The notes beneath the pieces are model-generated. The model was not told where the DNA came from, did no database searches, and saw nothing but the letters and a program-made list of their open reading frames with translations. Both the position numbers and the translations under genes were made by a program. 64,000 nucleotides of DNA from Candidatus Baltobacteraceae bacterium. GTDB lineage: Bacteria > Vulcanimicrobiota > Vulcanimicrobiia > Vulcanimicrobiales > Vulcanimicrobiaceae. Below, in pieces: positions 33,633-37,548 of the stretch (position 1 is its first letter; every line of letters begins with the position of its first letter). The stretch lies in assembly GCA_036488875.1 (NCBI GenBank), contig DASXGW010000013.1:355281-419280 (forward strand). The letters run 5' to 3'.

Positions 33633-34340
33633 GTGTCGTTTCTGGATCGCGTCGAGCAGGCGTGTGCGGCGTTCATCGAGCGCACGTTTGCCAAGACGTT
33701 TCCCAGCGACCTCGAGCCGACTCAAATCGCGCGCAAGCTCGTCGCGACGATGGAAGCGCGCACGCGCGGCGGCGAGGGCGCGATGTACGCCCCGGGCTCG
33801 TACCTCGTGTACGTCAATCCGGACGATTTCGCGCGGCTTGCCGAGCATCAGGCGTATCTCGAACGGGAATGGGCCGAGTTGCTGCGCGATTTGGCCGGCC
33901 GCGTCGGCGTCAAGTTCCTCGAGGGTGATCCCAACATCGAGATGTCGCCGCGCGAGAGCATTCCCGCGGGCGCAGTCGAGGTGACCGCAATCGGCGAGGC
34001 CACCGTCGCGATCGACGCGACGATTCCGCGGCCGCCCGGGGCCGGTCGCCGGTTTCATCTGCGAATGATTAAAGGCGTGCCGGCTTACGGGGTATACTTT
34101 GTAGAGGGACGGGCGCAGATCGGGCGCAGTGAAGAAAGCGACGTCTTTCTCGTCGACCCGAGCGTCTCGCGCACGCATGCGATCGTCGAGGTGGACGGCA
34201 TGCAACCGGTCGTGCGCGATCTCGGTTCCACGAACGGCACCTTCGTCAACGGCGAGCGAATCGAGGCCAGGCAGCTCGAAGATGGGGATGAATTGATGTT
34301 CGGGAACACGCGGATGCGGTTCGAGGCAAGCGGAGCGTAA
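33633..34340 (+). CDS. FhaA-like protein: DUF3662 domain plus C-terminal FHA
   Basis: 235 residues. The N-terminal DUF3662/FhaA_N domain (1-115: FLDRVEQACAAFIERTFAKTF, then PTQIARKLVATME and APGSYLVYVNPDDFARL) is joined by a short linker to an FHA domain (about 150-235). The FHA phosphothreonine-binding residues are all present: IGRSEESD, SRTHA and GSTNGTF. In Actinobacteria FhaA binds phosphorylated MviN/MurJ and links Ser/Thr kinase signalling to wall synthesis. Here it heads fhaA-fhaB-PP2C-rodA as in that phylum. GTG start with a purine-rich stretch close by. Confidence 0.9.
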   Translation: MSFLDRVEQACAAFIERTFAKTFPSDLEPTQIARKLVATMEARTRGGEGAMYAPGSYLVYVNPDDFARLAEHQAYLEREWAELLRDLAGRVGVKFLEGDPNIEMSPRESIPAGAVEVTAIGEATVAIDATIPRPPGAGRRFHLRMIKGVPAYGVYFVEGRAQIGRSEESDVFLVDPSVSRTHAIVEVDGMQPVVRDLGSTNGTFVNGERIEARQLEDGDELMFGNTRMRFEASGA

Positions 34341-34778
34341 ATGGTCCTATTCGGCGCGGCAGTGGAAGCGCAGTTGCGAGTCGGCTCGCTCGAGATTCTT
34401 GCTGGGCTGGCCGTCGTCGCCGTAGCCGCCACCCGCCCGCGCATTCGTCCCGCCAGCGAGGCCGGACGCCTCGTCCCGATGCGCCTCACCTTGGAAATCT
34501 TCGAGCAGGGCCAGACGCGCCGCTTCGAAGGCCGACCCCCGTTTGAGATCGGCCGCGGTGCCGACGCCGAGCTCTCGTTGCGCGATCCGGAGGTCAGCCG
34601 GCAGCACGCTTGCTTCCAGAGCCGCAACGGCATCGTCTACGTCGACGATCTGCAAAGCCGCAACGGAACCTTTCTCAACGGAAGGCGCGTTACAGAAGCG
34701 ATCGAGGTGCGCGAAGGCGACGCCGTCGACGTCGGAACGACGCGCATGATGGTACGTACGGTGGAAGAATGGACTTAA
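34341..34778 (+). CDS. FhaB-like membrane-anchored FHA protein
   Basis: 145 residues. One N-terminal hydrophobic helix (LEILAGLAVVAVAAT) anchors a cytosolic FHA domain with intact binding residues: FEIGRGADAE, SRQHACF and SRNGTFLNG. ATG follows the upstream stop codon with no gap. Corresponds in position and build to actinobacterial FhaB/FipA, which recruits phosphorylated division proteins. No Ser/Thr kinase gene is in the window, so the phosphorylating partner must be elsewhere. Confidence 0.87.
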   Translation: MVLFGAAVEAQLRVGSLEILAGLAVVAVAATRPRIRPASEAGRLVPMRLTLEIFEQGQTRRFEGRPPFEIGRGADAELSLRDPEVSRQHACFQSRNGIVYVDDLQSRNGTFLNGRRVTEAIEVREGDAVDVGTTRMMVRTVEEWT

Positions 34779-34782
34779 CGCC

Positions 34783-35526
34783 ATGGACGTAGCGATTCGA
34801 GGCGATCGCGCATCGTGTCTGACGATGCAGCTCGGTCCGCGGACCTGGTTTTTGGCAGTCACGCGCGGATTCGGCAGCGTCGACGGTATGGCCATCGAGC
34901 GCGCACTGCTGACGCGCCTTCGCGCTGAATGCGAACGCCGGTTGCGCAGCGAGCGTTTTCGCCGCGCCGTCGATCGCCCGCACGCCGCCGCCACGGCGGT
35001 GCTCGCCGCGCTCGCCCGTGTGAACTCCGATCTGCACGCGCGCACCGCCGGACACGAAGACTACGTGACCGCGGCCGCGTCCTTAACCGCCGCACTGGTC
35101 GTTCGCGGACGCGCTTACGTCATGCACGCGGGCGGAACGGCGGCCTATTTGGCACATCGCGGCGAAGTCGTCGCGCTTTCCGGCGACGATACGTTCGAGG
35201 ACACTCCAATGCCGCTGCTCGCGCGCGCTCTCGGAACGACGCCCACGCTCGACGTTGCCGTTTCCAGCGTCATGCTCGACGAAGGCGACGTCATTATTCT
35301 GTGCGGCCGGCGCGTTCCGGGTGAGATCGACCGTCGCGCGCTCATCGCACACGTCGAGGCGGCCGATCCCCAAGAACATCTCTTGGTTGCCCGGTTCGAA
35401 CACGACGATGCGTCCGAGTCGGGTGCGCAAGCCGTGGCGTCGTTGCGTCCGCTGCACGTGGCAGCCTCGCTCGCGCGCATCGCCGCGGCGATAGGCTTCG
35501 TTCTCGCAATGGTATTCGCGCGCTGA
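34783..35526 (+). CDS. PP2C-fold pseudophosphatase with C-terminal membrane helix
   Basis: 247 residues in the place of the PstP/PrpC phosphatase. The PP2C framework can be followed: WFLAVTRGFG (28 should be Asp of A-D-G), then TAAASLTAALV (the G-T-T-x-x-x-A segment), YVMHAGGTAAYLAHRGEV (G-D-S-R replaced by G-G-T-A), LLARALG, and DEGDVIILCGRRVPGEI (S-D-G replaced by G-R-R). The last metal Asp is lost too (DPQEHLLVARF). So at least three of the Asp ligands for the two metals are replaced and catalysis is not expected. One membrane helix (about 226-246) ends the chain, as in PstP. Inferred role: non-catalytic phosphopeptide- or FHA-linked scaffold. The family assignment rests on alignment by eye. 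Confidence 0.7.
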   Translation: MDVAIRGDRASCLTMQLGPRTWFLAVTRGFGSVDGMAIERALLTRLRAECERRLRSERFRRAVDRPHAAATAVLAALARVNSDLHARTAGHEDYVTAAASLTAALVVRGRAYVMHAGGTAAYLAHRGEVVALSGDDTFEDTPMPLLARALGTTPTLDVAVSSVMLDEGDVIILCGRRVPGEIDRRALIAHVEAADPQEHLLVARFEHDDASESGAQAVASLRPLHVAASLARIAAAIGFVLAMVFAR

Positions 35527-35543: not shown

Positions 35544-36761
35544 ATGGCCGGCGCATTGGCAATCTCCGCGCTCATCCTAACCTTCGCCCCTCCCCATACC
35601 ATCGGTCCGTGGTGGATGCTCGCCCTGCTCGGATTTCTTGCGATGGGGTGGGTGCTGGTGCAGCCGCCGGGGTCGGTGCGCGACGACATGCTCCCGGCGT
35701 TGGCGATCGTGTTGGCAGCGCTCGGCTTGGCCATCGTCGCGCGCCTCTCGCCCGAGCTCGCGCAAAAACAGCAAGCGTGGCTGCTCGTGTCGCTCGTTCT
35801 GGTGCTCGCATTCGGACCGGCTTTTTCGAACTTTCGACGCTTCGCCGCGTACAAATATCTGTGGGTGATCGGATCGCTCGTCCTCTTCGGCCTACTGCTC
35901 GCCTTCGGTCAAGAGGTCAACGGAGCACGGCTTTGGATCAAGCTCGGTCCGGTCGAGTACGAACCGATCGAACTCATCAAACTCTTCATCGTCTTCTTTC
36001 TCGCGGCGTATCTGGCGGAAATGGCCGACGTGATCGCCGAGGCGCGACCGTGGTCGCTGCGCGCCAACCTCAAATATCTCGGGCCGCTGTTCATCGGGTG
36101 GGGCGCCTCGATGGCGATCTTGGTCGTTCAACGCGACCTCGGTATGGCTACGCTCTTGCTGCTGACGTTTGCAACGTTGCTGTTCGTCGCGACGCGCCGC
36201 GTGGACATCGTCGTGCTCGGCGCCGCCATCTTTGCGGGCGTCGCGTACTGGGCGGTTCGCCACTATCCGTACGTGCAGACGCGCATCGCCGTGTGGCGCA
36301 ATCCCTTTTCCGATCCGCTCGGCGCGGGCTTTCAGTCGTCGCAATCCTATTACGCGCTCGCGGCCGGCGGGGTGTTCGGCACCGGTTATCGCTTAGGGCA
36401 TCCCGGCTTCATTCCCGACGTCGCGACCGACTACGTGTACGCCGCGTTCTCCGAAGAGTTCGGAGTGATCGGCGCGCTGATCGTCCTGGTCATCTTTTTG
36501 GGACTCGTGCGCCGCATTCTCGCGACCGGCCTGGAACAGCCCGATCTCTACACGAAGCTGCTGGCCGCCGGTCTCGGAGCGACCTTGGGATTTCAAATCT
36601 TCATTATCGTTGGCGGCGTCATCGGACTCTTTCCGCTCACCGGCATCACGCTGCCGTTCGTCTCGTACGGCGGCAGCTCGCTCGTGGCGAACTTTCTACT
36701 CGTCGCTCTCGTGTGGGCGATGAGCTCCCGGCCCAGACGCACGTCGCCGAATACTTCTTGA
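35544..36761 (+). CDS. rodA: FtsW/RodA/SpoVE-family peptidoglycan glycosyltransferase
   Basis: 405-residue polytopic SEDS protein, about 10 membrane helices. Landmarks: NGARLWIKLGPVEYEPIELIK (the catalytic-loop region after helix 4), KYLGPLFIGW, VQRDLGMATLLL, and the C-terminal GITLPFVSYGGSSLVANFLL. It polymerises lipid II into glycan strands with a partner PBP. Position after FHA and PP2C genes supports RodA (elongation) as in actinobacterial fhaAB-pstP-rodA-pbpA-pknAB, but FtsW is not excluded. No partner PBP2 follows; the next gene is a deacetylase-like protein. ATG 35544; earlier in-frame CTG codons would extend it by several residues. Confidence 0.92.
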   Translation: MAGALAISALILTFAPPHTIGPWWMLALLGFLAMGWVLVQPPGSVRDDMLPALAIVLAALGLAIVARLSPELAQKQQAWLLVSLVLVLAFGPAFSNFRRFAAYKYLWVIGSLVLFGLLLAFGQEVNGARLWIKLGPVEYEPIELIKLFIVFFLAAYLAEMADVIAEARPWSLRANLKYLGPLFIGWGASMAILVVQRDLGMATLLLLTFATLLFVATRRVDIVVLGAAIFAGVAYWAVRHYPYVQTRIAVWRNPFSDPLGAGFQSSQSYYALAAGGVFGTGYRLGHPGFIPDVATDYVYAAFSEEFGVIGALIVLVIFLGLVRRILATGLEQPDLYTKLLAAGLGATLGFQIFIIVGGVIGLFPLTGITLPFVSYGGSSLVANFLLVALVWAMSSRPRRTSPNTS

Positions 36762-36762
36762 G

Positions 36763-37548
36763 ATGCGGAGTGCGTTTTGGTGGGCGCTGATTGCCGGAGC
36801 TTTGGCCGCTATCGGCGCGGGGTACGTGCAGGCGAGCGTGCAGACGCGGCCGCCGCCGATCGCGCAACTCCGTTCGAACCCTGAAACGCTCCCCGCGCCG
36901 CAGCCCGGCGTCAGGCGCGAAGCGCAGACGCAAGCGCTCGACGATGCCTTCGCGCAAGACGAGGTCGTCGTCGATCGCGCCCGAACGCCGCAGCCGCAGT
37001 GGCAAAGCGAGCAGTTGCAGCTCGTGGTCGGGATTTGCGGCAGTTCCGTTGCCGCCGAGTCGGGCTTCTTGCGGCTGCGGTATCCGGTCGCATTCGTCCT
37101 CGATCCGGCGGCCGAGCAGGCGCGCGCCTTTGCCGATCTCGTGCGCGACAACGGTGACGCGCTGCTGGTGCAGCTCGACGAGCCGCCCGCGGTGCAAACG
37201 CTCGCGGCGCTTCGTCGAACGATCGGGCAGTTCGACGGCATTGCGTCGCGCCACACAGCCGGAATGGCGGTCGCGCTGCACGGCACCGGGCTGGCGTTTT
37301 TCGACGAGCGTGGCGACGCGGCAAATGGGGACACGTTCGCGCGAATGGGCGTAAGACTCGTGCGGCGCGACGTGACCGCCGACAACCGGGGTGGTCTGGG
37401 CTACGTGACGTTCATGCTTGGCCGGGCGGCGGCGCTCTCGCGGCGCAACGGTCCCGTCGTCGTCTTCGTCCGGCCGCAGCCGTCGACGCTGGAAGCGCTT
37501 GCGGACTTCGGCGCGGCGCACGACGTGCGCATGATCGCCTTGCAATAG
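36763..37548 (+). CDS. YibQ-like divergent polysaccharide deacetylase family protein
   Basis: 261 residues; an N-terminal anchor (FWWALIAGALAAIGAGYV), a disordered Pro/Gln/Arg spacer, then a NodB-like beta/alpha fold (about 85-261: LQLVVGICGSSVAAESGFL, YPVAFVLDPAAEQARAF, DALLVQLDEPP, and GYVTFMLGRAA). This resembles the DUF610/YibQ divergent deacetylases found near division and wall genes. The family's paired acidic residues at the first strand (I-D-D-x-G) are replaced here by G-I-C-G, so metal-dependent deacetylation is doubtful. One base separates it from rodA, so it is co-transcribed. Confidence 0.55.
   Translation: MRSAFWWALIAGALAAIGAGYVQASVQTRPPPIAQLRSNPETLPAPQPGVRREAQTQALDDAFAQDEVVVDRARTPQPQWQSEQLQLVVGICGSSVAAESGFLRLRYPVAFVLDPAAEQARAFADLVRDNGDALLVQLDEPPAVQTLAALRRTIGQFDGIASRHTAGMAVALHGTGLAFFDERGDAANGDTFARMGVRLVRRDVTADNRGGLGYVTFMLGRAAALSRRNGPVVVFVRPQPSTLEALADFGAAHDVRMIALQ

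Follow-up and report, generated by a model that had tools for sequence, protein, structure and literature searches.

Control of cell-wall growth is usually ascribed to a PASTA kinase and a PP2C phosphatase that are regarded as belonging inseparably together. The window, that is, the whole 64,000-nucleotide stretch of DNA analysed here, carries a gene in the position of such a phosphatase whose product appears to have lost its metal-binding aspartates, and this raises the question of what the protein is, how it came to this state and what it may still do. A first-pass annotation had placed the gene after two FHA genes and before RodA, and the same slot was recovered: the gene (34783..35526, + strand; ATG start; 247 aa) follows 33633..34340 and 34341..34778 and precedes 35544..36761. 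From the fold match (AlphaFold, Foldseek and VIA) and the alignment described below, the product is very likely a PP2C pseudophosphatase without metal-binding residues, encoded at the place typical of PstP.

The window presents the gene order FHA-FHA-PP2C-RodA. The first gene (33633..34340, +) encodes an FhaA-like protein with an FhaA_N domain (Pfam, 67.5 bits) and a C-terminal FHA domain (73.5 bits; GR..SRTH..NGT). The second (34341..34778, +) encodes an FhaB-like protein with a hydrophobic N-terminus and an FHA domain (67.4 bits; GR..SRQH..NGT), which scored 62.9 bits against the NCBIfam FhaB model, below the cut-off of 125. Both FHA domains thus keep the phosphothreonine-binding residues (GR...SRxH...NGT) that had been noticed at the outset. 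Downstream lies a SEDS glycosyltransferase gene of the RodA/FtsW family (35544..36761, +; Pfam FTSW_RODA_SPOVE, 241.9 bits), which scored 232 bits against ftsW and 223 bits against rodA in NCBIfam, neither above cut-off. The next gene in line encodes a divergent polysaccharide deacetylase (36763..37548, +; Pfam Polysacc_deac_2, 51.4 bits) and adjoins the cluster in part of the relatives only.

The product of 34783..35526 did not reach the family score cut-offs for catalytic PP2C/PPM proteins in Pfam or NCBIfam: SpoIIE gave 17.4 bits (cut-off 25), PP2C_2 16.2 bits (cut-off 24) and NCBIfam Stp1 34 bits (cut-off 230). A sequence search matched PstP (1txo) with an E value of 0.0025. We predicted a single structure, using 54 aligned relatives, and subjected it to one Foldseek and one VIA comparison. 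The AlphaFold model had a mean pLDDT of 87.5 and matched PP2C phosphatases in Foldseek with E values down to 5e-10. The best PDB match in VIA-align was a bacterial PP2C (Z 18.9), and the structural alignment to PstP 1txo, which had been proposed as a check, gave a Z value of 16.5 over 187 residues at 25% identity. The protein is accordingly modelled as a PP2C domain followed by a C-terminal helix. The membrane helix proposed earlier was found at residues 224–246 (35452..35520, +) from the AlphaFold secondary structure and the best hydrophobic window (hydropathy 2.15); it is followed by 3 residues and no extracytoplasmic domain.

The metal positions were assigned via intact relatives, which align with tPphA, Stp1 and PstP over the full domain. 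The Asp of motif I is replaced by A10 (codon 34810..34812, +), the ADG Asp, corresponding to PstP Asp38, by R28 (34864..34866, +; T-R-G), the Asp of GD(S/A)R by G118 (35134..35136, +; G-G-T) and the Asp of (S/T)DG by R176 (35308..35310, +; G-R-R), and the DN motif is deleted. This alignment gave the same changes that had been read from the window (ADG to TRG, GDS to GGT, SDG to GRR and loss of DN), and the claim that all metal Asp residues are replaced holds for five of five. The change at A10 and a flap shorter by approximately 14 columns were absent from the first-pass annotation. For PstP, the available portion of PMC3052367 describes the role of Asp38 and reports that D38G or D229G alone removes more than 90% of the activity. 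Judged from the residues and these PstP mutants, canonical PP2C metal catalysis by the window protein is very unlikely.

To follow the slot among relatives, we compared the window's GTDB family of soil bacteria (f1), its sister family (f2) and an outgroup family (f3). A scan of genome contigs for close relatives found 9, of which 8 were Candidatus Eremiobacterota MAGs. A match in the PP2C slot was present in 75 of the 99 f1 genomes. After the fragments G004, G063, G022, G072, G094 and G082 were dropped, 84 full-length proteins remained; the f3 genome G112, in which the gene is split over contigs, was left out of the typing, as were 7 of the 99 f1 genomes. The 69 full-length f1 proteins comprised 9 with an intact metal site, 3 with a partial one and 57 eroded ones, of which 13 belong to clade A and 44 to clade B, the clade of the window. 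An intact five-Asp PP2C occupied the same slot in all full-length proteins of f3 (12/12) and f2 (3/3). In 17 further f1 genomes the PP2C gene is cleanly deleted, with FhaB and RodA adjacent and −43 to 73 bases between them; this was the case in every PP2C-less locus having both flanks (17/17). None of the five positions holds Asp in 41 of the 44 full-length clade B proteins, so that the condition of the window protein is no chance event. On the evidence of these alignments, the protein appears as a clade-wide PP2C pseudophosphatase formed in situ and not as one odd gene.

The order FHA-PP2C-RodA is conserved in nearly all loci, and in 78 of the 84 measured no more than approximately 100 bases separate the PP2C stop codon from RodA; the six exceptions are three large gaps (G059, G058 and G100) and three overlaps due to start choice. 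At L047 and L106 (G059 and G058), approximately 1.7 kb is inserted between the PP2C gene and RodA. The strict FHA pattern was found in 42 of 44 FhaA and 40 of 44 FhaB proteins of clade B, and in 17/17 and 16/17, respectively, of the PP2C-deleted genomes. In the intact group it was absent from 16 of 24 FhaA and 12 of 24 FhaB proteins, 12 of each being from f3 genomes, where the FhaA search retrieved only a short FHA protein.

Other origins of the eroded site were considered. A frameshift or assembly artefact was ruled out by the common state of the 44 full-length relatives, an overprinted frame by the PP2C fold and purifying selection, and a transfer from elsewhere by the class-wide conservation of the position.

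Intermediate states of the metal site are preserved (DDEDD, EDDSD, EDQGH, DEGxF and xDNK). The GD Asp alone is lost in G043 and G044, the ADG Asp is retained in G085, and G040, G042 and G060, which diverge first within clade B in the 63-row tree, keep the ADG Asp and have a Lys at the TDG site, which could form a salt bridge instead of binding a metal. Trees were built from RodA and FhaA (77/108 rows) and from RodA, FhaA, FhaB and PP2C without the motif columns (63 rows), after near-duplicates and short rows were thinned. In both, clade A grouped next to the intact proteins and clade B stood separately, with an SH-aLRT value of 100 for clade B in the four-gene tree. When all lost rows were forced together, the arrangement was not rejected with RodA and FhaA (AU p 0.154) or after addition of FhaB and PP2C minus the motif columns (AU p 0.194). 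Two losses of the metal site are thus probable, favoured by the free trees, with a single origin not rejected. Within their respective clades, G085 and G040/G042/G060 still have the ADG Asp, so the complete zero-Asp state was reached more than once if Asp was never regained. Parsimony on the RodA and FhaA tree required at least 6 changes between presence and absence of PP2C, which indicates that the protein in this slot is dispensable in some relatives.

The tail past the membrane helix measured 71–82 residues in the 8 f2 and f3 proteins examined, and 8 and 15 residues in two intact proteins of the window's own family. Together with the 3 residues in the window protein, these lengths suggest that the tail was lost first, then the metal site and then the gene. 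In 13 of the 44 clade B proteins, the C-terminal helix scored below the hydropathy threshold. The pseudophosphatase tail is shortened in the g35 genomes (G077, G078, G079–G081, G083 and G084; L037–L041, L102 and L103), and no clear membrane helix over the hydropathy threshold was seen in these genomes.

We estimated dN/dS by the NG86 method with our own script; several dS values exceed 1, and the values are rough. Cells with a wrong start or a fragment were dropped (fhaA G080/G084; fhaB G067/G071, G069/G070 and G068/G073), and the partial pair G043/G044 was computed and assigned to no group. The median for the eroded pp2c gene was 0.146 (0.061–0.31) in 15 clade B pairs and 0.196 in 4 clade A pairs, compared with 0.105 in 6 pairs of intact pp2c. 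The medians of the neighbouring genes ranged from 0.069 to 0.151; in the clade B pairs they were 0.098 for fhaA, 0.131 for fhaB and 0.069 for rodA. The eroded gene is under purifying selection and is slightly less constrained than the intact copies. Approximately 35 positions are nearly invariant over the 44 clade B proteins, and the (near-)invariant residues include G29, F30, G31, N81, D93, Y94, S100, G117, R148 and D169.

The emptied site, once acidic, has a basic character. At the ADG and TDG Asp sites, 43 of the 44 clade B proteins have at least one basic residue and 30 have two, against an overall basic share of 13.5%, although the rows are related and these counts give no probability. 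The phosphate-Arg column holds R in 33 of the 44. The residues standing in for Asp are diverse (R, H, T, A, Q or E at ADG; H, R, K, C or A at TDG), and the column entropy of the four alignable former Asp positions lies at the 46th–66th percentile in clade B. This average conservation indicates that the pocket is not tightly constrained. The flap of PP2Cs serves substrate recognition, and its shortening weakens the idea that the window protein still holds phosphorylated substrates.

A kinase had been proposed as something to look for elsewhere in the genome (3.7 Mb, 15 contigs, 97.6% complete), and two protein kinase domains were found. One is a Pkinase domain with five PASTA matches. Its gene comes immediately behind that of a penicillin-binding protein whose dimerisation domain is of the PbpA type, and VAVK, HRD and DFG, which we take to be the kinase motifs, are readable in the kinase translation. 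These two genes lie at a separate locus, L098, outside the FHA-FHA-PP2C-RodA cluster; at L098:4058-7557, the PbpA-type transpeptidase gene and then the PASTA kinase gene stand near RuvB and SpoIID genes. An FHA-PP2C-RodA-PbpA-kinase cluster is known from Actinobacteria (PMC6554272, in the part available), and here its genes fall into two groups, FHA-FHA-PP2C-RodA and PbpA-PASTA kinase. The same PASTA kinase was found in the PP2C-deleted genomes G010 and G036, and a kinase domain in 96 of the 99 family genomes.

With regard to other phosphatases in the window's genome, PF00481 gave no match and PF13672 none over cut-off; one weak PF13672 match (C4:474443) is a SpoIIE-type domain. SpoIIE-type PPM domains gave 13 matches and are possible candidates for substitute phosphatases. 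One SpoIIE domain outside the window (G000:C13:438604-439157) was matched as two neighbouring pieces in separate open frames, suggestive of a frameshift or a sequence error. Among 55 good genomes, a PP2C_2 match over cut-off was present in 13 and absent in 42, and one of these 42 (G003) has a partial metal site. Outside the cluster, a further PP2C_2 gene, different in subtype, occurs at L164 (G019), L163 (G085) and L165 (G086), where the cluster PP2C is eroded. The earlier proposal of phospho-dependent regulation without a local phosphatase fits the retained FHA motifs and PASTA kinase, but in view of the 13 SpoIIE-type matches the absence of a phosphatase holds for the cluster and not necessarily for the cell.

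We consider it probable (about 0.6) that the protein is an in-place descendant of a PstP/Stp1-type phosphatase that now, anchored in the membrane and without catalysis, serves the RodA/FHA complex as a docking partner; the retained fold, anchor and neighbours, together with the lost chemistry, point to such a docking or scaffold role in wall growth. The ancestor would have been a PstP/Stp1-type PP2C acting with a PASTA kinase in an FHA-FHA-PP2C-RodA wall-growth module. Within the family, the suggested order is that the tail past the membrane helix became short first, and alignment and trees show a stepwise loss of the metal Asp residues. Phosphate hydrolysis by the PP2C metal mechanism would thereby have ended, as the residues and the PstP mutants imply. 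The fold and the membrane helix are kept, the gene has stayed in its position and purifying selection still acts on it. A partner might now dock on surfaces that formerly bound substrate. Arg or His residues line the emptied site where Asp used to be, and a segment that is acidic or carries phosphate may sit there without being cleaved. The PASTA kinase would write the marks and the FHA proteins would read them, their removal presumably being left to another phosphatase or to turnover. A structural role for the PP2C fold, which had also been suggested from the window, agrees with the purifying selection; the function itself is our interpretation.

The most serious competitor is that the gene is dying: a useless phosphatase whose active site was lost by drift, which is heading for deletion and has no present function. 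The uniformly clean deletions, the repeated changes between presence and absence, and a dN/dS somewhat above that of intact copies are what such decay would produce. However, dN/dS is far below 1 in 15/15 pairs, no stop was seen within the matched frame among the family matches listed, nearly invariant positions persist across the 44 proteins and the structure prediction of the fold is highly confident; we regard decay as unlikely. Shielding of phosphate marks has been proposed for other pseudophosphatases, and the window protein could likewise restrain another phosphatase, or the PASTA kinase, as a decoy or brake that binds substrates and protects their marks. The kept PP2C fold and the Arg at the phosphate column would suit this role, and PHLPP2 "may have retained substrate binding" according to the available text of PMC12002173. 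However, the 42 of 55 good genomes that have no PP2C_2 match over cut-off would mostly offer no PP2C rival, and the shortened flap speaks against it as well, so that a decoy seems distinctly improbable.

Least credible is a changed enzyme, in which the basic pocket would perform a metal-free reaction or use another substrate. The conspicuously basic site invites this explanation, and PP2C-fold relatives with altered chemistry are discussed in the accessible part of PMC5468089, but the replacing residues vary in a manner unlike a new catalytic centre and no clade-specific set of residues stands in place of the metals; we give it very little weight. A bolder form of the docking reading is that a PASTA-kinase phosphatase was converted in at least two lineages, through the preserved intermediates, into a metal-free phospho-reader with a basic pocket, leaving a write-and-read module without its cognate Ser/Thr phosphatase and later making the gene itself dispensable. 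We offer this extension tentatively and hold it to be doubtful, somewhat less so than the decay of the gene.

One gene slot thus shows every stage from an intact through a partial to a completely lost metal site and to deletion, with the kinase and FHA readers kept. This lets one ask what a PP2C protein does beyond catalysis, and whether wall-growth control by the kinase and FHA proteins needs any phosphatase. The phylum has a cultured member, Vulcanimicrobium (available part of PMC9758169), which makes a bench test conceivable. Our searches of open-licence papers listed none that describes a PstP-type protein lacking its metal site within an FHA-RodA cluster, and the terms "inactive", "degenerate" and "Eremiobacter" are absent from the accessible portion of a bacterial PP2C survey (PMC12088040).

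PP2C pseudoenzymes as such are already known (RssB, TAB1 and PHLPP2). The closest counterpart is PstP of the mycobacterial fhaA-fhaB-pstP-rodA-pbpA-pknA-pknB locus, which has the same fold (Z 16.5), the same FHA/FHA/RodA neighbours and a C-terminal membrane helix. Unlike PstP, the window protein is without the five metal Asp residues and the extracytoplasmic domain and has a shortened flap, and the PASTA kinase and PbpA are encoded at another locus. The ClpXP adaptor RssB likewise uses a PP2C-type domain without phosphatase function (PMC5468089, as far as available). RssB, however, serves a protease as adaptor and belongs to the atypical response regulators (PMC7226468, text available in part), whereas the window protein consists of one membrane-anchored domain, is part of a wall-growth cluster and has relatives in which the orthologue at this position is intact. 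For PHLPP2 and TAB1, the accessible text of PMC12002173 likewise traces the loss of activity on a tree and proposes a membrane scaffold role. These eukaryotic proteins keep one metal at the M2 site, whereas in the window protein the residues for all metals are replaced, and the present case differs from them further in being bacterial and in combining repeated loss with deletion of the gene.
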